In this document: positions 27,690 through 64,000 of the stretch, in pieces
Position numbering within the stretch: position 1 is the stretch's first letter
Layout of the letters: the number at the start of each line of letters is the position of its first letter
Assembly: GCA_916048055.1 (NCBI GenBank)
Contig: CAJZHL010000010.1
Location: forward strand, 578,501-642,500
Reading direction: 5' to 3'
From: Pedinophyceae sp. YPF-701
Taxonomy: Eukaryota > Chlorophyta > Pedinophyceae
Length of the DNA stretch: 64,000 nucleotides
Made by a program: the position numbers and the translations under genes
The notes under the pieces: model-generated
Seen by the model: the letters and a program-made list of their open reading frames with translations, nothing else
What the model was told of the DNA's origin: nothing
Databases searched by the model: none

Positions 27690-28330
27690 CCCGCAATCAG
27701 TGCGGCGCTGACTGCCAAGCCGAGCGCGTACGCGCGCCTGGTGGAGGAGAACGAGGTTTACCTGCAGGATCAGCTGATGACGCCATCAGGTGCGTTTTAT
27801 CTTCGAGGGGGGCTGGGGGGGGAAGGGTCGAAGCACATGGCACGACGCGGTGATTCAAACTTGCCTGTTGTCGCCCGACGCGTCGAAACAGGGTCGCCCC
27901 TCTCTGTTTGGTTGTACATTCGTCGGGTGCTCGCAGGTTGCACAGGTGGTGGCTCCGCGAGTGCCGAACGGCGGCTGGGAAGCACGTTGACCGGCGTGAT
28001 GCTCCGAGCGCGCACGTCCTCTCCAACCGCCCCAGGCCCGAGGGCGCCGAAGCGCTCGCTGCGTGGGTTGGCCTCCAGCCTCGGGGCCCGCGGACGTCGG
28101 ACATCGACGCCCTGCAGGCCCAGCTGATGCGGGTCGGCGGGCACGTCCTTGACGGCATGCCGCTGGTGCTGATGCGGGCCGGGGTCCTCGGCCCGCCCGG
28201 AAGATACTCGTACGGCGAGTTCTTCCGGGCGAGCGGCGACGCGGTGGACCCGCGTCTCTGCCATCTTCAAGACGGTGACCAGGAGTGGGACGGCGAGGCC
28301 GAGACCGGCGGCCCACCCGGCGAACCTTGG
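27690..28330 (+). pseudogene. Exon-like coding remnants of an unrecognised protein
   Basis: An exon-like stretch at 27690-27789 follows a CAG and ends at a GTGCGT donor; it reads SAYARLVEENEVYLQDQLM. A second open stretch at about 27950-28330 reads AHVLSNRPRPEGAEALAAWV and, further on, MRVGGHVLDGMPLVLMRAG and YSYGEFFRASGDAVDP. The two parts do not join in phase in an obvious way, and I could not find a start or stop for a whole gene. I do not recognise the protein family. The second part is duplicated as an inverted copy downstream, with mostly third-position differences, which argues that this frame was translated at least until the duplication. It may be a decayed gene or a gene with further exons I missed. 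Confidence 0.35.
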
Positions 28331-28537
28331 GCCGCCGGTCTCGGCCTCGCCGTCCCACTCCTGGTCGCCATCCTGCAGGTGGCAGCGACGCGGGTCCACC
28401 GCGTCGCCACTCGCCCGGAACAACTCGCCGTACGAGTAGCTTCCGGCCGGGCCGAGGACCCCGGCCCGCATCAGCACCAGCGGCATGCCGCCAATGACGT
28501 GCCCGCCGACCCGCATCGGCTGGGCCAGATCCTGCAC
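28112..28537. repeat. Long near-perfect palindrome (inverted duplication of a coding segment)
   Basis: The left arm (about 28112-28313) and right arm (about 28328-28537) are reverse complements at about 93% identity over the best 195 bases, with a central spacer of about 15 bases. Read from either side, the arms give nearly the same peptide (MRVGGHV, GMPLVLMRAGVLGP, YSYGE, FRASGDAVDPR). A transcript would form a hairpin of about 200 base pairs. Confidence 0.9.
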
Positions 28538-29372: not shown

Positions 29373-31274
29373 ATGCCACAGGGACGGCGCAGCGGTGGGG
29401 GCGCGCCCCGCGAGCGCTCAACTCGCGCACGGCCCCAGCAGCATCAGCTGGAGGACATTCAATGCGGGCGGGACGGTCCCCTGGCCAGCGTCATACGTAC
29501 GCTGCCGCGCATGTCGCGCGTCGCCTTGGCGGCGACGTCGTCGGCGATGATGGCAGCGGTGCTGGAGAGCTGCGACGGCGCGAGGTGGTGGTCTCGGGAC
29601 GCAGGCAGGTCTTGTGCGGAGGCGGGGCATGTGGGGCAGACGGTGGCGCGGCGGCTGGAGGGGCGGGTGTCGGAGGGGACGAGCTCGGAGGTAGGGTGGG
29701 CTACGGGGCGCGGGGAGTGGGTGGTGTATCAACGCGCAGGCAGTTGCGACGTGGGCGTGCCGTCCGCGGTGGTGCGCGTGGAGGCGGGAGATCGGGATCT
29801 GCTGGAGTCGCTGGTCCAGACGGATGCCGGCCGGCGTGAGCTGGCGTCGGCGCCTGCGGTGACGGCGGAGATGACGGGCCTGCGGTATCTGGACGTGGCA
29901 GTGTCCGGGCTGGACATGGAGGGTGTGTGGGGGCGGGAGTGGCTGCCTGCGGGCGTGGCGGCGGGCATCACGGAGCTGAGGGTGGGCGGGACGAGGCTGG
30001 AGCGCGTGCCGGAGGGGATGGTCTCGCTCGAGGTCCTGGACGTCAGCGATTGCAACCAGCTGGAGGGCGAGACGTTCCTGCCGGCGTCGAGCGCTGGGCG
30101 GGTGCGGGTGCTGAAAGCCAACTACAGCAACCTGCGGAGGGTGCCCGAGGGGATGTGCGCGCTGGAGGAGCTCAGTGTGTGCGGGCACTGGTACAACTGG
30201 GGAGCTACAGGAGCACCGGAGTACTGCCGCCTGGACGAGGCGTGCCTGCCGGCGTCGTCCGCGGCGGGGCTGCGTGTGCTGCGCGCCGACTACAGCGCTC
30301 TGCGCAAGCTGCCCGCGGGCATGCGGGCGCTGCGGGAGCTCCATGTGCGTTGGTGCGAGAATCTGCAGCCCGAGCTTGCGCTGGCGGGCGCTGTGGAGCT
30401 GCGGGTGCTGGATGCTTGGGGCACGGGGATGCGGGTGGTGCCGGAGGGGCTGACGGCGCTGGAGGTGCTCGACGTGAGGAGCTGCGGGTCGCTGGACGTC
30501 GGCTCGCTACGCAACGCTGCCACGGTGCGCGTGCTGAGGGTGAACAGCGCTGGGCTGCGGAGGGTGCCGGAGGAGCTGACGGCGCTGGAGGAGCTGGACC
30601 TGAGCGGCTTCCCGGGAGAAATCACGGAGGGCTTCTTCCCGGCGCGGATCTCTGCGAGGCTGCGTGGGCTGAAAGTCTTCTTGTGCCCTGCAGTGAGGAG
30701 GGTGCCGGAGGGGCTGACCGCGCTGGAGGAGCTCATCGTGAGTGATTGCGAGCAGCTGGACGGGGAGGCGTTCCTGCCCGCGTCGTATGCTGCGAGGCTG
30801 CGAGTGCTGAGAGCCTCGTTGAGCAACGTGCGGAAGCTGCCGAGGGGCATGGACGCGCTGGAGAAGCTGGACGTGAGCTGTTGCAAAGAGCTGGACTGGG
30901 AGGACGCGGTGGAGGTGCTTGGCGGTGCTGCGAGGCTGCGGGTGCTGCATGCACGCAATAGCAACATGCGGAGGCTGCCGGAGGGACTGTGCGCGCTGGA
31001 GGAGCTGGACGTGAGCCATTGCAAGCAGCTGGACTGGGAGGACGCGGCGGAGGTGCTGGGCGGCGCTGCGAGGCTGCGGGTGCTGAAGGCAAGCAATAGC
31101 AACATGCTGAGCCTGCCGGAGGGACTGCACGCGCTGGAGGAGCTGTACGTGCGAGAGTGCATGAATCTGACGGGGCCGCTGGAGCAGAGCGTCGCGTACC
31201 GTCTGCGTCGGTGGAGCGTTGCGGGGAGCGGGCTGGTGCTGCCGGCGGGGATGAAGGAGACGCATTACGGGTGA
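29373..31274 (+). CDS. F-box-like/leucine-rich-repeat protein, family member 1
   Basis: A single exon of 633 residues. The frame is open further upstream, but the ATG at 29373 (MPQGRRSGGG) aligns with the starts of the three paralogues (MVPRRRSD, MAPRRRSD and MAPRRCSD). Residues about 28-70 (LEDIQCGRDGPLASVIRTLP, then SRVALAATSSAMMAAVLESC) look like a degenerate F-box. From about residue 145 to the end run LRR units of the form LRVLxAxxSxLRRVPEGLxALEELxVxxC, with about 46 residues per double unit. This copy carries two units of the DWEDAVEVLGGAA type. F-box/LRR proteins usually select targets for ubiquitin ligases; that role is only inferred here, and an intracellular recognition role is an alternative. 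It lies 25 kb from its three relatives and in the opposite orientation. The 3' flank keeps about 80 bases shared with the others. Confidence 0.8.
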   Translation: MPQGRRSGGGAPRERSTRARPQQHQLEDIQCGRDGPLASVIRTLPRMSRVALAATSSAMMAAVLESCDGARWWSRDAGRSCAEAGHVGQTVARRLEGRVSEGTSSEVGWATGRGEWVVYQRAGSCDVGVPSAVVRVEAGDRDLLESLVQTDAGRRELASAPAVTAEMTGLRYLDVAVSGLDMEGVWGREWLPAGVAAGITELRVGGTRLERVPEGMVSLEVLDVSDCNQLEGETFLPASSAGRVRVLKANYSNLRRVPEGMCALEELSVCGHWYNWGATGAPEYCRLDEACLPASSAAGLRVLRADYSALRKLPAGMRALRELHVRWCENLQPELALAGAVELRVLDAWGTGMRVVPEGLTALEVLDVRSCGSLDVGSLRNAATVRVLRVNSAGLRRVPEELTALEELDLSGFPGEITEGFFPARISARLRGLKVFLCPAVRRVPEGLTALEELIVSDCEQLDGEAFLPASYAARLRVLRASLSNVRKLPRGMDALEKLDVSCCKELDWEDAVEVLGGAARLRVLHARNSNMRRLPEGLCALEELDVSHCKQLDWEDAAEVLGGAARLRVLKASNSNMLSLPEGLHALEELYVRECMNLTGPLEQSVAYRLRRWSVAGSGLVLPAGMKETHYG

Positions 31275-56225: not shown

Positions 56226-58097
56226 TTACCAACAGCTCTCTTTCATCCCCTCTGGCAGCACCAGCCCGCTCCACTTAACGCTCCACCCACGCAGACGATC
56301 CGCGACGCTCTGCTCCAGCGTCCCCGTCAGATCCTCGCACCCTTCAACGTCCAGCTCCTCCAGCGCGTGCAGTCCCTCCGGCAGCCTCCACATGTTGCTA
56401 TTGCGTGCATACAGCACCCGCAGCCTCGCAGCGCCGCCCAGCACCTCCGCCGCGTCCTCCCAGTCCAGCTCTGTACACCAATCCACATACAGCGCCTCCA
56501 GCGCGTGCAGTCCCCCCGGCAGCCTCCACATGTTGCTTCGGCACGCACTCAGCACCCGCAGCCTCGCAGCGCCGCCCAGCACCTCCGCCGCGTCCTCCCA
56601 GTCCAGCTCGTTGCACTCATCCACGTCCAGCTTCTCCAGCGCGTCCATGCCCCTCGGCAGATTCCGCACGTTGCTGTGCGAGGCTCTCAGCACTCGCAGC
56701 CTCGCAGCATACGACGCGGGCAGGAACGTCTCGCCGTCCAGCTGCTTGCACCGGCTCACGTTGACCTCCTCCAGCGCCGTCAGCCCCTCCGGCACCCTCC
56801 TGATTCCAGGGCAGTCTCTGACACTCAGCCTGCGCAGCCTTGCACAGATCCGCGCCGGGAAGAGGCCCTCCGTGATGTCTCCCGGGAAGCCCTCCAGGTC
56901 CAGCTCCTCCAGCGCCGTCAGCTCCTCCGGCACCCTCCGCAGCTCAGCGCTGTTCACCCGCAGCACACGCACTGTGGGAGCGTTGCGCAGCGAGCCGACG
57001 TCCAGCGACGTGCAGCCGCTCACGCCGAGCTCCTCTAGCGCCGTCAGCCCCTCCGGCACCACCCGCATCCCCGTGAACCCAGCATTCAGCACCCGCAGCT
57101 CCGCAGCGCCCGTCAGCACAAGCTCAGGCTGCAGATTCTTGCACCCGTACACGTGGAGCTCCCGCAGCGCCCGCATCCCCGCGGGCAGCCTGCGCAGATC
57201 GCTGAATTCGGCGCGCAGCACCCGCAGCGCCGCCGCGGACGACGCCGGCAGGCACGCCTCGTCCAGGCGCCCGCACTCGCACACACTGAGCTCCTCCAGC
57301 GCGCACATCCCCTCAGGCACCCTCCGCAGGCTGCTGCTCTCGGCTTTCAGCACGCGCACCCGCCCCGCGCTCGACGCCGGCAGGAACGTCTCGCCCTCCA
57401 GCTCCGAGCACCGGCTGACGTCCAGGACTTCGAGCGAGACCATGCCCCCCGGCACGCGCTCCAGCATCGTCCCGCGCACCCGCAGCTCCCTGATGCCCGC
57501 CGCCACGCCCGCAGGCAGCCACTCCCGCCCCCACACGCGCTCAATGTCCAGCCCGTACACTGCCATATACCAGTGCATGGCATGCATGCCAACGCACCGC
57601 AGGCCCGTCATCTCCGCCGTCACCGCCGGCGCCGACGCCAGCTCACGCCGGCCCTCGGCCGTCCGGTTCAGGGCCTGCAGCAGACGCCGATCTCCCGCCT
57701 CCACGCGCACCACCGCGGACTGCACGCCCACGTCGCAACTGCCCGCGTGGTGATACACCACCCACTCCCCGCGCCCCGTCGCCCACCCGACCAGCGACCT
57801 CGTCTTCTCCGACACCCGCCCCTCCAGCCGCCGCGCCACCGTCTGCCCCACCCGCTCCTCCGCACACTGGCTGCGTGCGTCCTCTGACCGCCACCTCGCG
57901 CCGTCGCAGCTCTCCAGCACCGCTGCCATCATCGCCGACGACGTCGCCGCCAGCGCGATGCGCGATCTGCGCGGCAGCGTACGGATGACGCTGGCCAGGG
58001 GACCGTCCCGCCCGCATTGAATGTCCTCCAGCTGATGGGGCCGACCGGGTTCCGAGCGCCCAGACGCGCCCATGTCGCTGCGCCGGCGCGGCACCAT
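56226..58097 (-). CDS. F-box-like/leucine-rich-repeat protein, family member 2
   Basis: A single exon of 623 residues starting MVPRRRSDMGASG. Residues about 21-62 contain EDIQCGRDGPLASVIRTLP and ALAATSSAMMAAVLESC, the degenerate F-box shared by the family. LRR units occupy about residue 150 to the end. It has an unusual insertion (GMHAMHWYMAVYG) near residue 155, where the others have a shorter strand. Two DWEDAAEVLGGAA units are present, as in member 1, with a period of 46 residues (LRVLSACRSNMWRLPGGL, then LRVLYARNSNMWRLPEGL). The C-terminus ends VLPEGMKESCW, unlike the KTHDG end of members 3 and 4. Function is unknown. It is the outermost copy of the array on the NAC alpha side. Confidence 0.8.
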   Translation of the reverse strand: MVPRRRSDMGASGRSEPGRPHQLEDIQCGRDGPLASVIRTLPRRSRIALAATSSAMMAAVLESCDGARWRSEDARSQCAEERVGQTVARRLEGRVSEKTRSLVGWATGRGEWVVYHHAGSCDVGVQSAVVRVEAGDRRLLQALNRTAEGRRELASAPAVTAEMTGLRCVGMHAMHWYMAVYGLDIERVWGREWLPAGVAAGIRELRVRGTMLERVPGGMVSLEVLDVSRCSELEGETFLPASSAGRVRVLKAESSSLRRVPEGMCALEELSVCECGRLDEACLPASSAAALRVLRAEFSDLRRLPAGMRALRELHVYGCKNLQPELVLTGAAELRVLNAGFTGMRVVPEGLTALEELGVSGCTSLDVGSLRNAPTVRVLRVNSAELRRVPEELTALEELDLEGFPGDITEGLFPARICARLRRLSVRDCPGIRRVPEGLTALEEVNVSRCKQLDGETFLPASYAARLRVLRASHSNVRNLPRGMDALEKLDVDECNELDWEDAAEVLGGAARLRVLSACRSNMWRLPGGLHALEALYVDWCTELDWEDAAEVLGGAARLRVLYARNSNMWRLPEGLHALEELDVEGCEDLTGTLEQSVADRLRGWSVKWSGLVLPEGMKESCW

Positions 58098-58639
58098 CGC
58101 GCTGCGACAGCCTCAGATCGCCGTGTCGCGTTCCCGCGCCCTTGCGCCGCCTCCTGCGCGCCCACGGAGAAAGGTCAGGGGTCACATCCACTGAGGCCGC
58201 GGCCACGTTGCGCGACGACAGCGACGCGCGAGCGACATCGAGCCGTGCTCTGCTGATACTGAACGTCGTATCGCCATGCTTGACATCCGCCTCGAGCGCG
58301 GCAACCGCACGCGGCAGCGCGCCAAGCACCCAGGCTGCGCTGCATCGCCAGCGGTGCGGCATACAGGCGCGTTCCGGACACGCATGCGCAGCGCCGCACT
58401 GCCAGCGACACACACGTCACGCACCTGCGCACCGATACACCCGTTGCCCGCAAACGCGCGGAGAGACGACCCCGCTGCTCCTCACTGCCTGAAAGCGTGC
58501 TGCCAGACGCGAGTGCGGTGGGCAGCGGACCCGCGCGGTCGCCGTGACTGGACCTCGCGTGTGTGTGCACGCAACCGGCACGGCGAGGCGCCCATGTCGG
58601 CACTCGCGCTCACCGAATCGAGACACCTCCCCCTGACAG

Positions 58640-58770
58640 CAAGGGATGCCTCACGTTGCGCGGGCTGTACGGCCGCTGTTGCCAGGGACTCCACCACGCG
58701 CTCCGGTCCCGGCTGCACGCGCACCACCGCGGACGGAACGCCCACGTCGCTAAGTGACCAAGCAGTGTGG
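58640..58770 (-). pseudogene. Truncated LRR-gene fragment in spacer 1
   Basis: The minus strand reads DVGVPSAVVRVQPGPERVVE, which matches residues about 120-140 of the intact LRR proteins (DVGVPSAVVRVEAGDR) and then diverges. It has no start and no repeats, so it is a fragment copied along with the unit. Confidence 0.65.
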
Positions 58771-59049
58771 AGCAGTGCACAAGCAGTTTGCGACAGTGGT
58801 GTGAAGGACGCAGCAGGCGCTCGCTCGCTCACTCGCCCGCGCATCAGCACGCGCGACTACATGTGCGCCGAGCACGGTGCTGCTCGACGTATCAGCACAC
58901 GCAGCCTCGGAGACATCGCCATGTCCGCTCAACAGCTGGAGCAACCTGCCCAGCCGGGAACGGTACAGAGCCGCGAGACACCCCTCGGGCGACCATGACG
59001 CTGGGCTTCACACGGGCCGTCGGCACCCCTGAGCAGATCCGCATCCACC

Positions 59050-60768
59050 TCACCCGTCATGTGTCTTCCCCATCCCCAACGGCAGCACCAGCCCGCTCCC
59101 CTCAACGTCCCACCGACGCAGACGGTCCGCGACGCTCTGCTCCAGCGTCCCCGTCAGATCCTCGCACTCATCAACGTACAGCTCCTCAAGCGCGCACAGT
59201 CCCTCCGGCAGCCTCCGCATGGCGCTGTGGCACGCACTCAGCACCCGCAGCCTCGCAGCACCGCCCAGCACCTCCGCCGCGTCCTCCCAGTCCAGCTCGT
59301 CGCACTCATCCACGTCCAGCACCTCCAGCGCGTCCATGCCCCTCGGCAGCTTCCGCACGTTGCTGCCTGAGGCAATCAGCACTCGCAGCCCCGCAGCATA
59401 CGACGCGGGCAGGAACGCCTCGCCGTCCAGCTGCTCGCACCGGCTCACGTCGACCTCCTCCAGCGCCGTCAGCCCCTCCGGCACCCTCCTGATTTCAGGG
59501 CAGTCTCTGACCCTCAGCCCACGCAGCCTCGCACAGATCCGCGCCGGGAAGAGGCCCTCCGTGATCTCTCCCGGGAAGCCCCTCAGGTCCAGCTCCTCCA
59601 GCGCTGTCAGCTCCTCCGGCACCCTCCGCAGCCCAGCGCTGTTCACCCTCAGCACGCGCACCGTCGGAGCGTTGCGCAGCGAGCCGACGTCCAGCGACTC
59701 GCAGTCCCGTACGTCGAGCTTCTCCAGCGCCGTCAGCCCCTCCGGCACCACCCGCATCGCCGTTCTCGGAGCACTCAGCATCCGCAGCTCCACAGCGTCC
59801 GTCAGCACAAGCTCAGGCTGCAGATTCTCGCAGAAGTCCACGTGCAGCTCCCGCAGCGCCCGTATCCCCGCGGGCAGCCTGCGCAGGGTGCTGTAGCCGG
59901 CGCGCAGCACACGCAGCCCCGCCGCAGACGACGCCGGCAGGCACGCCTCGTCCAAGTGCGCGCACCCGTGCACACTGAGCTCCTCCAGCGCGCACATCCC
60001 CTCGGGCACCCTCCGCAGGCTGGTGAACTCGGCCCTCAGCACCCGCACCCGCCCCGCGCTCGACGCCGGCAGGAACGAGTCATCGTCCAGATGTGCGCAA
60101 TCGCTGACGTCCAGGACCTCGAGCGAGACCATGCCCTCCGGCACGCGCTCCAGCATCGTCCCGCCCACCCTCAGCTCCGTGATGCCCGCCGCCACGTCCG
60201 CAGGCAGCCACTCCCGCCCCCACACGCCCTCCACGTCCAGCTCGTACACTCCCACGTCCACGCACCGCAGGCCCGTCATCTCCGCCGTCACCGCCGGCGC
60301 TGACGCCAGCTCACGCCGGCCGGCATCCGTCCGGACCAGGGACCGCAGCAGATTCCGATCTCCCGCCTCCACGCGCACCACCGCGGACGGCACGCCCACA
60401 TCGACGCACGTGCCTGCGTGGTGATACACCACCCACTCCCCGCGCCCCGTCGCCCACCCGACCTCCGACCTCGTCCCCTCCGACACCCGCCCCTCCAGCC
60501 GCCGCGCCACCGTCCGCCCCACCCGCCGCTCCGCACAAGGGCTGCGTGCGTCCCCCGACCACCACCTCGCGCCGTCGCAGCTCTCCAGCACCGCCGCCAT
60601 CATCGCCGACGACGTCGCCGCCAGCGCGATGCGCCACCTGCGCGGCAGCTTACGGATGACGCTGGCCAGGGGACCGTCCCGCCCGCACTGAATGTCCTCC
60701 AGCTGATGCTGCTGCTTGGGCCGTGAGCGCCCGGACGCGCCCCTGTCGCTGCGCCGGCGCGGTGCCAT
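59050..60768 (-). CDS. F-box-like/leucine-rich-repeat protein, family member 3
   Basis: A single exon of 572 residues, using the ATG at 60768 (MAPRRRSDRGASG) that aligns with the paralogues, although the frame is open 175 codons further upstream. The F-box-like region (LASVIRKLPRRWRIALAATS) and the DVGVPSAVVRVEAGDR segment are kept. There is only one DWEDAAEVLGGAA unit, which largely explains why it is about 50 residues shorter than members 1 and 2. LRR core residues are conserved, while the exposed positions after LRVL and before LRRVPEG vary (for example AEFTSL, AGYSTL, SAPRTAM). It ends VLPLGMGKTHDG, the same as member 4. Expression and partners are unknown. Confidence 0.8.
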   Translation of the reverse strand: MAPRRRSDRGASGRSRPKQQHQLEDIQCGRDGPLASVIRKLPRRWRIALAATSSAMMAAVLESCDGARWWSGDARSPCAERRVGRTVARRLEGRVSEGTRSEVGWATGRGEWVVYHHAGTCVDVGVPSAVVRVEAGDRNLLRSLVRTDAGRRELASAPAVTAEMTGLRCVDVGVYELDVEGVWGREWLPADVAAGITELRVGGTMLERVPEGMVSLEVLDVSDCAHLDDDSFLPASSAGRVRVLRAEFTSLRRVPEGMCALEELSVHGCAHLDEACLPASSAAGLRVLRAGYSTLRRLPAGIRALRELHVDFCENLQPELVLTDAVELRMLSAPRTAMRVVPEGLTALEKLDVRDCESLDVGSLRNAPTVRVLRVNSAGLRRVPEELTALEELDLRGFPGEITEGLFPARICARLRGLRVRDCPEIRRVPEGLTALEEVDVSRCEQLDGEAFLPASYAAGLRVLIASGSNVRKLPRGMDALEVLDVDECDELDWEDAAEVLGGAARLRVLSACHSAMRRLPEGLCALEELYVDECEDLTGTLEQSVADRLRRWDVEGSGLVLPLGMGKTHDG

Positions 60769-61309
60769 CGCGCTATGACAGATCCAAGCTGCCGTGTCGC
60801 GTTCCCGCCCCTGTGCGCCGCCTCCTGCGCGCCCACGGAGACAACGAGGGAGGCGGTCGGAAGGTGGGCCCGCAACCACGTTGAGCGACGGCAGCGACGC
60901 GCGGCCGACATCATTCCGTGCTCTGCTGATACTGAGCGTCGCAGCGCCACGCTTGACATCCGCCTCAAACGCGGCACCCGCACGCAGCAGCGCGCCAAGC
61001 ACCCAGGCTGCATCGCCAGCGGTGCCGCATACAGGCGCGTTCCGGACACGCATGCGCAGCGCCGCACTGCCAGCGACACACACGTCACGCACCTGCGCAC
61101 GCAGACACCCGTTGCCCGCAAACGCGCGGAGAGCCGACCCTGCTGCTCCTTGCTGCTTGAACGTGTGCTGGACGCGCGAGTGCGGTGGGCAGCGGACCCG
61201 CGCGGTCGCCGTGACTGGACCTCGCGTGGTTGTGCACGCAACCGGCACGGCGAGGTGCCCATGTCGGCGTACGCGCTCACCGAATCGAGACACCTCCCCC
61301 TGACAGCAA

Positions 61310-61437
61310 GGGATGCCTCACGTTGCGCGGGCTGTACGGCCGCTGTTGCCAGGGACTCCACCACGCGCTCCGGTCCCGGCTGCACGCGCACCACCGCGGA
61401 CGGCACGCCCACGTCGCAAAGTGACCAAGCAGTGTGG
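61310..61437 (-). pseudogene. Truncated LRR-gene fragment in spacer 2
   Basis: Almost the same sequence as the fragment at 58640-58770 (VGVPSAVVRVQPGPERVVE on the minus strand), in the same place relative to the flanking genes. A third, cut copy is visible at about 63945-64000. Confidence 0.65.
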
Positions 61438-61699
61438 AGCAGACAGTGGTGTGAAGGACGCAGCAGGCGCTCGCTCGCTCACTCGCCCGCGCATCAGCAC
61501 GCGCGACTACATGTGCGCCGAGCACGGTGCTGCTCGACGTATCAGCACACGCAGCCTCGGAGACATCGCCATGTCCGCTCAACAGCTGGAGCAACCTGCC
61601 CAGCCGGGAACGGTACAGAGCCGCGAGACACCCCTCGGGCGACCATGACGCTGGGCTTCACACGGGCCGTCGGCACCCCTGAGCAGATCCGCATCCACC

Positions 61700-63415
61700 T
61701 CACCCGTCATGTGTCTTCCCCATCCCCAACGGCAGCACCAGCCCGCTCCCCCTAACGTTCCACCCACGCAGACGGTCCGCGACGCTCTGATCCAGCGTCC
61801 CCGTCAGATTCCTGCACTCATCAACGAACAGCTCCTCCAGCGCGCACAGTCCCTCCGGCAGCCTCCGCATGTTGCTGTAGCTTGCCCTCAGCACCCGCAG
61901 CCTCGCAGCGCCGCCCAGCACCTCCGCCGCGTCCTCCCAGTCCAGCTGTCTGCAGAACGCTACATTCAGCTCCTCCAGCGCGTCCATGCCCCTCGGCAGC
62001 TTCCGCATGTTGCTGTTTGAGGCTCTCAGCACCCGCAGCCTCGCAGCATACGACGCGGGCAGAAACACCTCGCCGTCCAGCTGCTCGCACCCGCTCACGT
62101 CGAGCTCCTCCAGCGCCGTCAGCCCCTCCGGCACCCTCCTCACGGCAGGGCACCAGCTGACACTCAGCCCACGCAGCCTCGCACAGATCCGCGCCGGGAA
62201 GAGGCCCTCCGTGATTTCTCCCGGGAAGCCGCTCAGATCCAGCTCCTCCAGCGCTACCAGCTCCTCCGGCACCCTCCGCAGCCCAGCGCTGTTCACCTTC
62301 AGCACGCGCACCGTGGCAGTGCTGCGCAGCGAGCCGACGTCAAGCGAGGCGCAGTACCGCACGTCGAGCTCCTCCAGCGCCGTCAGCCCCTCCGGCACCA
62401 CCCGCATCCCCGTGCCCCCAGCGCTCAGCACCCGCAGCTCCACAGCGCCCGCCAGCGCAAGCTCGGGCTGCAGATTCTTGCACCAGTCCACGTGGAGCTC
62501 CCGCAGCGCCCGCATGCCCGCGGGCAGCCTGCGCAGAGCACTGAAGCCGGCGTACACCACACGCAGCCCCGCCGCGGACGACGCCGGCAGGCATGCCTCG
62601 TCCAGGCGCCCGCACCCGTGCACACTGAGCTCCTCCAGCGCGCACATCCCCTCAGGCACCCTCCGCAGGCCGGTGCCGTCGGCCGTCAGCACCCGCACCC
62701 GCCCCGCGCTCGACGCCGGCAGGAACGTCTCGCCCTCCAGCTCCGAGCACCGGGTGATGTCCAGGACCTCGAGCGAGACCATGCCCTCCGGCACGCGCTC
62801 CAGCCTCGTCCCGCCCACCCTCAGCTCCGTGATGCCCGCCGCCACGCCCGCAGGCAGCCACTCCCGCCCCCACACGCCCTCCATGTCGAGCCCATCCACT
62901 GCCATGTCCAGGTACCGCAGGCCCGTCATCTCCGCCGTCACCGCCGGCGCCCACGTTAGCACAAGCCGGCCGGCATGCATCCGGACCAGGGACTCCAGCA
63001 GACCCCGATCTCCCGTCTCCACGCGCACCACCGCGGACGGCACGCCCACGTCAGCGCAGGTGCCTGCGTGGCGATACGCCACCCACTCCCCGCACCCCGT
63101 CGCCCACCCGACCTCCGACCTCGTCCCCTCCGACACCCGCCCCTCCAGCCGCCGTGCCACCGTCTGCCCCACCCGCCGCTCCGCACGAGGGCTGCGTGCG
63201 TCCCCTGACCACCACCTCGCGCCGTCGCAGCTCTCCAGCACCGCGGCCATCATCGCCAACGACGTCGCCGCCAGCGCGATGCGCGACTTGCGCGGCAGCG
63301 CACGGATGACGCTGGCCAGGGGACCCTCCCGCCCGCACTGAATGTCCTCCAGCTGGAGCCGTGCGCGTTTCCAGCGCTTGGACGCGCCCGCATCGCTGCA
63401 TCGGCGCGGCGCCAT
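61700..63415 (-). CDS. F-box-like/leucine-rich-repeat protein, family member 4
   Basis: A single exon of 571 residues starting MAPRRCSDAGASKRW. The F-box-like part reads REGPLASVIRALPRKSRIAL. As in member 3 there is one DWEDAAEVLGGAA unit and the C-terminus is VLPLGMGKTHDG. Variable LRR positions again differ from the relatives (ADGTGL, AGFSAL, SAGGTGM, ASYSNM). The first LRR block (GLRYLDMAVDGLDMEGVWG) is close to member 1 (YLDVAVSGLDMEG), not to its array neighbour member 3 (CVDVGVYELDVEG), which suggests exchange between copies or a mixed history. The product is probably soluble, with no signal peptide or membrane segment. Function is unknown. Confidence 0.8.
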   Translation of the reverse strand: MAPRRCSDAGASKRWKRARLQLEDIQCGREGPLASVIRALPRKSRIALAATSLAMMAAVLESCDGARWWSGDARSPRAERRVGQTVARRLEGRVSEGTRSEVGWATGCGEWVAYRHAGTCADVGVPSAVVRVETGDRGLLESLVRMHAGRLVLTWAPAVTAEMTGLRYLDMAVDGLDMEGVWGREWLPAGVAAGITELRVGGTRLERVPEGMVSLEVLDITRCSELEGETFLPASSAGRVRVLTADGTGLRRVPEGMCALEELSVHGCGRLDEACLPASSAAGLRVVYAGFSALRRLPAGMRALRELHVDWCKNLQPELALAGAVELRVLSAGGTGMRVVPEGLTALEELDVRYCASLDVGSLRSTATVRVLKVNSAGLRRVPEELVALEELDLSGFPGEITEGLFPARICARLRGLSVSWCPAVRRVPEGLTALEELDVSGCEQLDGEVFLPASYAARLRVLRASNSNMRKLPRGMDALEELNVAFCRQLDWEDAAEVLGGAARLRVLRASYSNMRRLPEGLCALEELFVDECRNLTGTLDQSVADRLRGWNVRGSGLVLPLGMGKTHDG

Positions 63416-64000
63416 CGCGCTGCGACAGCCTCAGGTCGCCGTGTCGCGTTCCCGCGCCCGTGCGCCGCCTCCTGCGTGCCCACGGAGACAAGGGAGGCGG
63501 TTGGGAGGTGGGCCCGCAACCACGTTGCGCGACCACAGCGACGCGCTGCCGACACCGAGCCGTGCTCTGCTGATACTCAACGTCGTAGCGCACAGCGTGA
63601 CATCCGCCTGCAACGCGGCACCCGCACGCGGCAGCGCACCAAGCACCCAGGCTGCGCTGCTCCGCCAGCGGTTGCGCATGCAGGCGCGTTCCGGACACGC
63701 ATACGCAGCGCCGCACTGCCAGCGACACACACGTCACGCACCTGCGCACGCACACACCCGTTGCCCGCCCGCAAACGCACGGAGAGACGACCCCGCTGCT
63801 TGAACGTGTGCTGGACGACGCGCGAGTGCGGTGGGCTGCGGACCCGCGCGGTCGCCGTGACTGGACCTCGCGTGTGTGTGCACGCAACCGGTACGGCGAG
63901 GCGCCCATGTCGGCGTACGCGCTCACAGAATCGAGGACACCCCCCCCGGGGATGCCTCACATTGCGGGCTGTACGGCCGCTGTTGCGCTCCGGCACGCAT
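63416..64000. other. Upstream flank of LRR member 4, start of a further spacer
   Basis: Matches the 5' flanks of members 2 and 3 over most of its length and then the beginning of the truncated-fragment block, up to the window end. The array probably continues beyond 64000. Confidence 0.6.

Follow-up and report, generated by a model that had tools for sequence, protein, structure and literature searches.

Diversifying selection at core surface residues and sequence exchange among copies in a tandem family of LRR genes with an F-box-like N-terminus in the green alga Pedinophyceae sp. YPF-701

Plant NLR (NBS-LRR) resistance genes lie in clusters of tandem arrays in which ectopic exchange is frequent and the concave residues of the leucine-rich repeats (LRRs) are variable. 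Plant S-locus F-box proteins are recognition adaptors with sequence exchange, and in plant S-RNase self-incompatibility F-box proteins separate compatible partners from incompatible ones. To our knowledge, little is known of the ways in which unicellular green algae recognise one another, viruses or further intruders, and a family of this size whose frame is conserved and whose surface is under selection would give a direct entry by naming genes, positions and a pathway (SCF ubiquitination). The LRR family described here resembles the plant NLR clusters in its tandem arrays, ectopic exchange and variable concave LRR residues, and the LRR of the window genes matches an RPS2-like Pfam model. It differs from them in an F-box-like N-terminus, with neither NB-ARC nor TIR detected, and in belonging to a unicellular green alga. 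With the S-locus F-box proteins it would share the arrangement of an F-box recognition adaptor subject to sequence exchange, whereas the target domain and the locus structure are different.

The host, YPF-701, comes from marine sand in Japan, has recently been named Akinorimonas japonica and is reported to reproduce sexually by cell fusion (PMC12574857); NB-LRR genes have been reported from another chlorophyte (PMC7145615). Brown-algal ROCO LRR genes, proposed as immune receptors, are reported to have four concave-side sites under positive selection and to undergo repeat shuffling (PMC11378527). Algal LRR repeats, concave-side positive selection and shuffling are common to both families, but the lineages are unrelated, no ROC-COR GTPase was detected in the window genes, and the window genes are single open frames rather than the one exon per LRR described for the ROCO genes (PMC11378527). 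In Caenorhabditis F-box families dN/dS is reported to peak in the substrate-targeting part (PMC8665587). These are likewise large lineage-specific families with a conserved N-terminal part and a fast-changing target-binding part, but the latter is FTH/FBA2 in the nematode account and LRR here, and support for the algal F-box is indirect. No description of the present family was found among the literature records listed, judged by titles and abstract openings; as far as that search reaches, the architecture and the host are new, with precedents in the plant NLR, brown-algal ROCO and nematode F-box families.

The window, that is, the whole 64,000-nucleotide stretch analysed, spans C10:578501–642500 of a 27.9 Mb genome in 32 contigs, contig C10 being 1,528,817 bp long. 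A sequence-only reading had placed three genes on a unit of ~2.65 kb, and this arrangement was confirmed: the genes are minus-strand frames with starts 2671 and 2647 bp apart, and the stop codons of units 2 and 3 are separated by 2650 bp. The features are collected in Table 1.

Table 1. Family features in the window, in window coordinates.
Feature	Position	Strand	Description
Fourth family copy in window	29373..31274	+	633 aa, strand opposite to genes 1–3
Gene 1	56226..58097	-	same family as gene 3, 623 aa, one additional 46-aa LRR pair
Gene 1 tandem repeat stretch	56352..56708	-	138-bp (46-aa, two-LRR) unit
Gene 2 3′ flank and last codons	58792..59101		310 bp identical to 61442–61751
Gene 2	59050..60768	-	same family as gene 3, 572 aa, 82% identity to gene 3
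Gene 3 3′ flank and last codons	61442..61751		310 bp identical to 58792–59101
Gene 3	61700..63415	-	open frame, 571 aa, F-box-like N-terminus and LRR solenoid
Gene 3 LRR solenoid	61751..62923	-	residues 165–555, about 18 strands, AlphaFold2 model
Gene 3 F-box-like segment (residues 20–63)	63227..63358	-	aligned with F-box of paralog P0010

The AlphaFold2 model of gene 3 has a pLDDT of 84.5 and shows the LRR solenoid at residues 168–553. In all 14 of its motifs residue x5 closes the strand and x7 and x8 come after it, and the variable residues are positioned at the strand end or just beyond. The F-box-like segment is conserved between copies (amino-acid difference 0.078) and in gene 3 is predicted to form helices at residues 32–39 and 42–62. 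No Pfam F-box match was found in the four window genes or in four genes of a second array on C20, and distant paralogs matched weakly (P0010 at 20.1 bits against a cut-off of 20.5, P0009 at E 0.065), the P0010 locus reaching 25.7 bits in a six-frame search. Alignment to F-boxes with hhalign gave 84% with same-superfamily F-boxes and 19% without them, controls giving 0.7% or less; a figure of 94.5% was set aside, as its query set contained P0009 and P0010 themselves. The N-terminus folded alone was modelled poorly (pLDDT 55), and its fold had no match at E ≤ 0.001, with no F-box chain among the matches listed. The designation F-box-like/LRR given in the first reading holds for the LRR, on the repeated motif and the predicted solenoid fold; support for F-box membership of the family is indirect, the Pfam match being absent in the window and C20 genes and weak in the distant paralogs. 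NB-ARC, TIR, ROC and COR were not found in three window genes (Pfam matches up to E 1 for NB-ARC, ROC and COR), and NCBIfam matches to bacterial LRR effectors were far below cut-offs and reflect the LRR only. The genome carries SKP1 (3 matches), cullin and 19 F-box matches over cut-off; only two NB-ARC matches were found (C2:628633–629076 and 637276–637725, inside open reading frames 1955 and 1621 aa long).

An own-genome search gave 143 matches, and at least 45 copies with at least 57% identity to gene 3 were counted in the stretches fetched. Of these, 21 lie in a main array at C10:362–419 kb, 7 elsewhere on C10 and 11 on C29, while C16 has 2 and C2, C3, C15 and C17 have a single copy each; three weaker matches (on C12, C28 and a C10 fragment) were left uncounted. 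The codon alignment comprises 39 of the 45 copies; those omitted are the two that are split, three incomplete copies on C29 and the C2 copy with 57% identity. Proteins of aligned copies with a clear start are 400–685 aa long, many near 527, 572 or 621; the number of 138-bp (46-aa, two-LRR) units varies across the family, and many length differences between copies are 46-aa steps. Two array copies, L031 (C10:370463–372027) and L033 (C10:411157–412355), are split by frame changes, and copy loss therefore proceeds alongside gain. The diverged second tandem array is located at C20:143–206 kb (L045–L049), its matched parts being about 37–54% identical to gene 3; 15 of its genes were read and 7 pairs tested. 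Matches in this array recur at an offset of ~20.9 kb, which suggests a large segmental duplication. A search of protein records, restricted to proteins 0.55–1.75 times as long as the query and to the 7,991 top candidates, returned 16 proteins, among them more distant YPF-701 paralogs. Annotation may overlook such families, because only one of the 45 copies, the most diverged one on C2 (P0001), was among those records.

Units 2 and 3 had been described as carrying an identical 3′ flank beside LRR codons that differ at exposed positions, and this contrast is present. The exact 310-bp tract takes in the last 49 coding bases, and the flank match runs on to 58605, for 497 bp in total with 2 mismatches and one 17-bp indel. 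The coding sequences differ by ~10% (dN 0.113, dS 0.102), a level at which 310 consecutive matches would arise by chance with a probability, by arithmetic, of about 6e-15. Amino-acid differences between the two genes fall on 40 of the 64 predicted exposed codons and on 29 of all 321 other LRR codons (Fisher p 1.8e-19), the latter divided into 8/98 in the framework and 21/223 in the other LRR codons; the N-terminal part has 34/184. The claim that coding and spacer are unequally similar likewise stands for this pair, since synonymous divergence is not equal to spacer divergence; the combination named in the first reading as refuting, such equality together with a dN/dS far below 1 at exposed positions, was not observed. 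A recent exchange between neighbouring units is the best interpretation of the identical flank. Nearly the whole 310-bp tract is matched at 88–91% by four further places, all in the main C10 array, where a fifth matches 309 bp at 93.5%, and the remaining matches are partial. With full-tract matches so few and the others partial, a functional element shared across the family is improbable.

Motif positions were assigned from the consensus, which has 14 LRR motifs (8 type A and 6 type B). The exposed class consists of 64 codons (x5, x7, x8 and x10, plus x11 in type A), the framework of 98 and the core of 36 (x7, x8 and x10 in type A; x7 and x8 in type B). The core subset was picked after viewing the per-position rates in the window family, and the C20 test alone used it unchanged. 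Canonical LRR positions 2, 3, 5, 7 and 8 pooled differ in 0.425 of comparisons versus 0.155 for the rest of the LRR, positions 2 and 3 being fairly conserved. By counting, pN is 0.378 in exposed versus 0.042 in framework codons, and pS 0.302 versus 0.099. Codon models were fitted to 19 disjoint pairs (38 copies). A plain model, with no multi-nucleotide changes, gave an exposed omega of 1.04 and a 2.9-fold synonymous rate, a result that speaks against selection. Allowing multi-nucleotide changes improved the fit by 2ΔlnL 697, and the 64 exposed codons together, with free rates, then had an omega of 1.27, not above 1 (2ΔlnL 2.5). Equality of the exposed and N-terminal synonymous rates was rejected even so (2ΔlnL 12.2), the whole-LRR rate being about 1.5 times the N-terminal one, and a single synonymous rate for all LRR classes was not rejected (2ΔlnL 3.15, 3 df).

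For the core, omega was 1.67 with free rates (2ΔlnL 7.0 against omega = 1) and 2.35 when all LRR classes share a synonymous rate (2ΔlnL 115 against omega = 1); the shared-rate model gave 0.95 for the edge and 0.16 for the framework. Bootstrapping over pairs, in the shared-rate model and with fixed rates of transition and multi-nucleotide change, placed core omega at 2.13–2.68, with 0 of 60 resamples below 1. In the C20 array core omega was 4.72 (free) and 1.53 (shared), omega = 1 being rejected in both (2ΔlnL 8.7), and the shared synonymous rate was itself disfavoured there (2ΔlnL 11.0). Diversifying selection had been proposed for the LRR surface in general; it is supported at the core concave positions of the window family and, independently, of the C20 array, and more weakly for the whole exposed class. 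The dN/dS above 1 expected at ligand-facing sites of diversifying recognition families, a grouping by mode of evolution and not by homology, is observed at the core, whose positions were chosen in the window family after its rates had been seen; the broad exposed class is not above 1 with free rates.

A limitation of gene conversion to the flanks, also proposed in the sequence-only reading, was not borne out, as shared tracts also occur in the coding sequence and flanks are generally more diverged than fourfold sites. Over all pairs the median divergence is 0.187 in the upstream flank, 0.348 in the downstream flank, whose alignments contain unalignable stretches, and 0.091 at fourfold sites. 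Near-identical flanks are the exception, because a difference below 0.03 is seen in 12 of at most 666 pairs on the 3′ side, with 5 of at most 703 on the 5′ side. A shared-tract test on 35 copies, dropping two near-identical duplicates, a short copy and the C17 copy, found 23 of 595 pairs globally significant, and 10 with codons permuted as blocks; the significant tracts lie in both the N-terminal and the LRR part of the coding sequence. Between-site association drops from an r2 of 0.162 within 10 bp to 0.041 at 10–30 bp (null 0.029), and from 0.216 to 0.045 when the exposed codons are removed; convergent change could contribute to this pattern.

Exchange is well illustrated by an 8,054-bp tandem duplication, recent in origin, that spans three genes (L006, L008, L010, L011, L013 and L017; C10:389–404 kb), the copies being named here by position in kb. 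Gene pair 391/399 has 1 coding difference and pair 394/402 has 4, and the far upstream flank of 394/402 differs, presumably as the edge of the duplication. Pair 389/397 has near-identical flanks (0.003 and 0.009) and 106 coding differences, of which 104 fall within the LRR, and 61 amino acids are changed overall; exposed residues are changed at 32/64 positions versus 22/321 for other LRR residues. No donor for the replaced tract better than 191 of 200 bases was found in the sequence fetched. Given flanks nearly identical around a divergent LRR and no good donor, one copy probably had its LRR replaced by sequence from outside the fetched set. The flank of units 2 and 3 looks like the mirror of this case, a recent exchange covering the flank only.

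We consider it most likely, with moderate confidence, that these genes encode intracellular F-box-like/LRR recognition adaptors under diversifying selection. The window would then contain one section of a large tandem family whose intracellular products join a curved LRR domain to an F-box-like N-terminus. On the computational evidence, core residues on the concave face of the β-sheet are under diversifying selection and the scaffold is kept, and copies exchange sequence by ectopic gene conversion and unequal crossing-over, which makes each gene a mosaic. The concave face is predicted to bind varying protein targets, most likely of non-self origin, for instance from viruses or other intruders, and the N-terminus may, more tentatively, engage the SKP1 subunit of an SCF ubiquitin ligase and thereby send bound targets to degradation. 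A fast surface, a slow scaffold and shuffling between copies are together the usual mark of a system that recognises changing targets, pathogens among them. The analysis supports diversifying selection at the core surface, together with shuffling, in a recognition-type LRR family, for which a role in immunity, self/non-self recognition or mating would be a reasonable proposal. A bolder version is possible, and we offer it as a conjecture: a unicellular green alga with almost no NB-ARC genes may have evolved a large LRR receptor repertoire of its own, of ubiquitin-ligase type, in which ectopic recombination would keep sites in nearly free association and new binding surfaces would be assembled continually from framework and surface variants held in one common pool.

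Relaxed constraint alone, with surface codons nearly neutral, the framework kept for folding and conversion spreading old variants in proteins that have no recognition role, is rather unlikely. It agrees with the exposed omega of 1.04 in the simplest codon model and of 1.27 when all exposed codons are taken together under free rates, but core omega exceeds 1 under both rate assumptions and in the independent C20 array. Nor is fourfold synonymous change raised at exposed codons: among codons that keep their amino acid it is 16/171 (0.094) in exposed and 105/1182 (0.089) in framework positions, with 195/2415 in other LRR and 110/2099 in N-terminal codons, and mutation is therefore not raised there. 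The 39 copies carry 37 distinct exposed signatures, in which polar, charged and aromatic residues are common and aliphatic ones rare.

Post-fusion recognition in mating or self/non-self discrimination, with the proteins telling compatible from incompatible gametes, is less probable still. The diversity and exchange would fit an incompatibility system, and cell fusion with anisogamous sexual reproduction is reported in YPF-701, but the account describes fusion for a single strain only (PMC12574857), and the copies are spread over six contigs besides C10 rather than confined to one locus. An assembly artefact, in which unresolved haplotypes or collapsed repeats gave the odd pattern of identity, is quite improbable: the 8,054-bp duplication with its one diverged pair could be two haplotypes placed in tandem, but one artefact would be insufficient for surface variation across 39 copies on several contigs and in a second array. 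The least credible rival is that the LRR surface varies through targeted hypermutation or through codons prone to mutate. In its favour, counting and the plain model suggested raised synonymous change at exposed codons (pS 0.30 versus 0.10; alpha 2.9), and framework codon position 6, between exposed codons, is slightly raised too (pS 0.16–0.18). Against it, the rise at exposed codons is gone among amino-acid-keeping codons (0.094 versus 0.089; C20 core 0.208 versus 0.246), a common LRR synonymous rate is not rejected with multi-nucleotide changes (2ΔlnL 3.15, 3 df), and framework positions 4 and 9 beside exposed codons remain at pS 0.06–0.13.

Two further features of the window were observed outside the genes. 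A 410-bp near-perfect palindrome (28117–28526, 91% self-inverted) lies just upstream of the fourth copy, and no second copy of it was found by DNA search of the alga's own genome. The spacers at 58682–58750 and 61349–61419 contain a ~70-bp piece of the genes' own N-terminal coding sequence at about 76–84% identity, which is a trace of past exchange.
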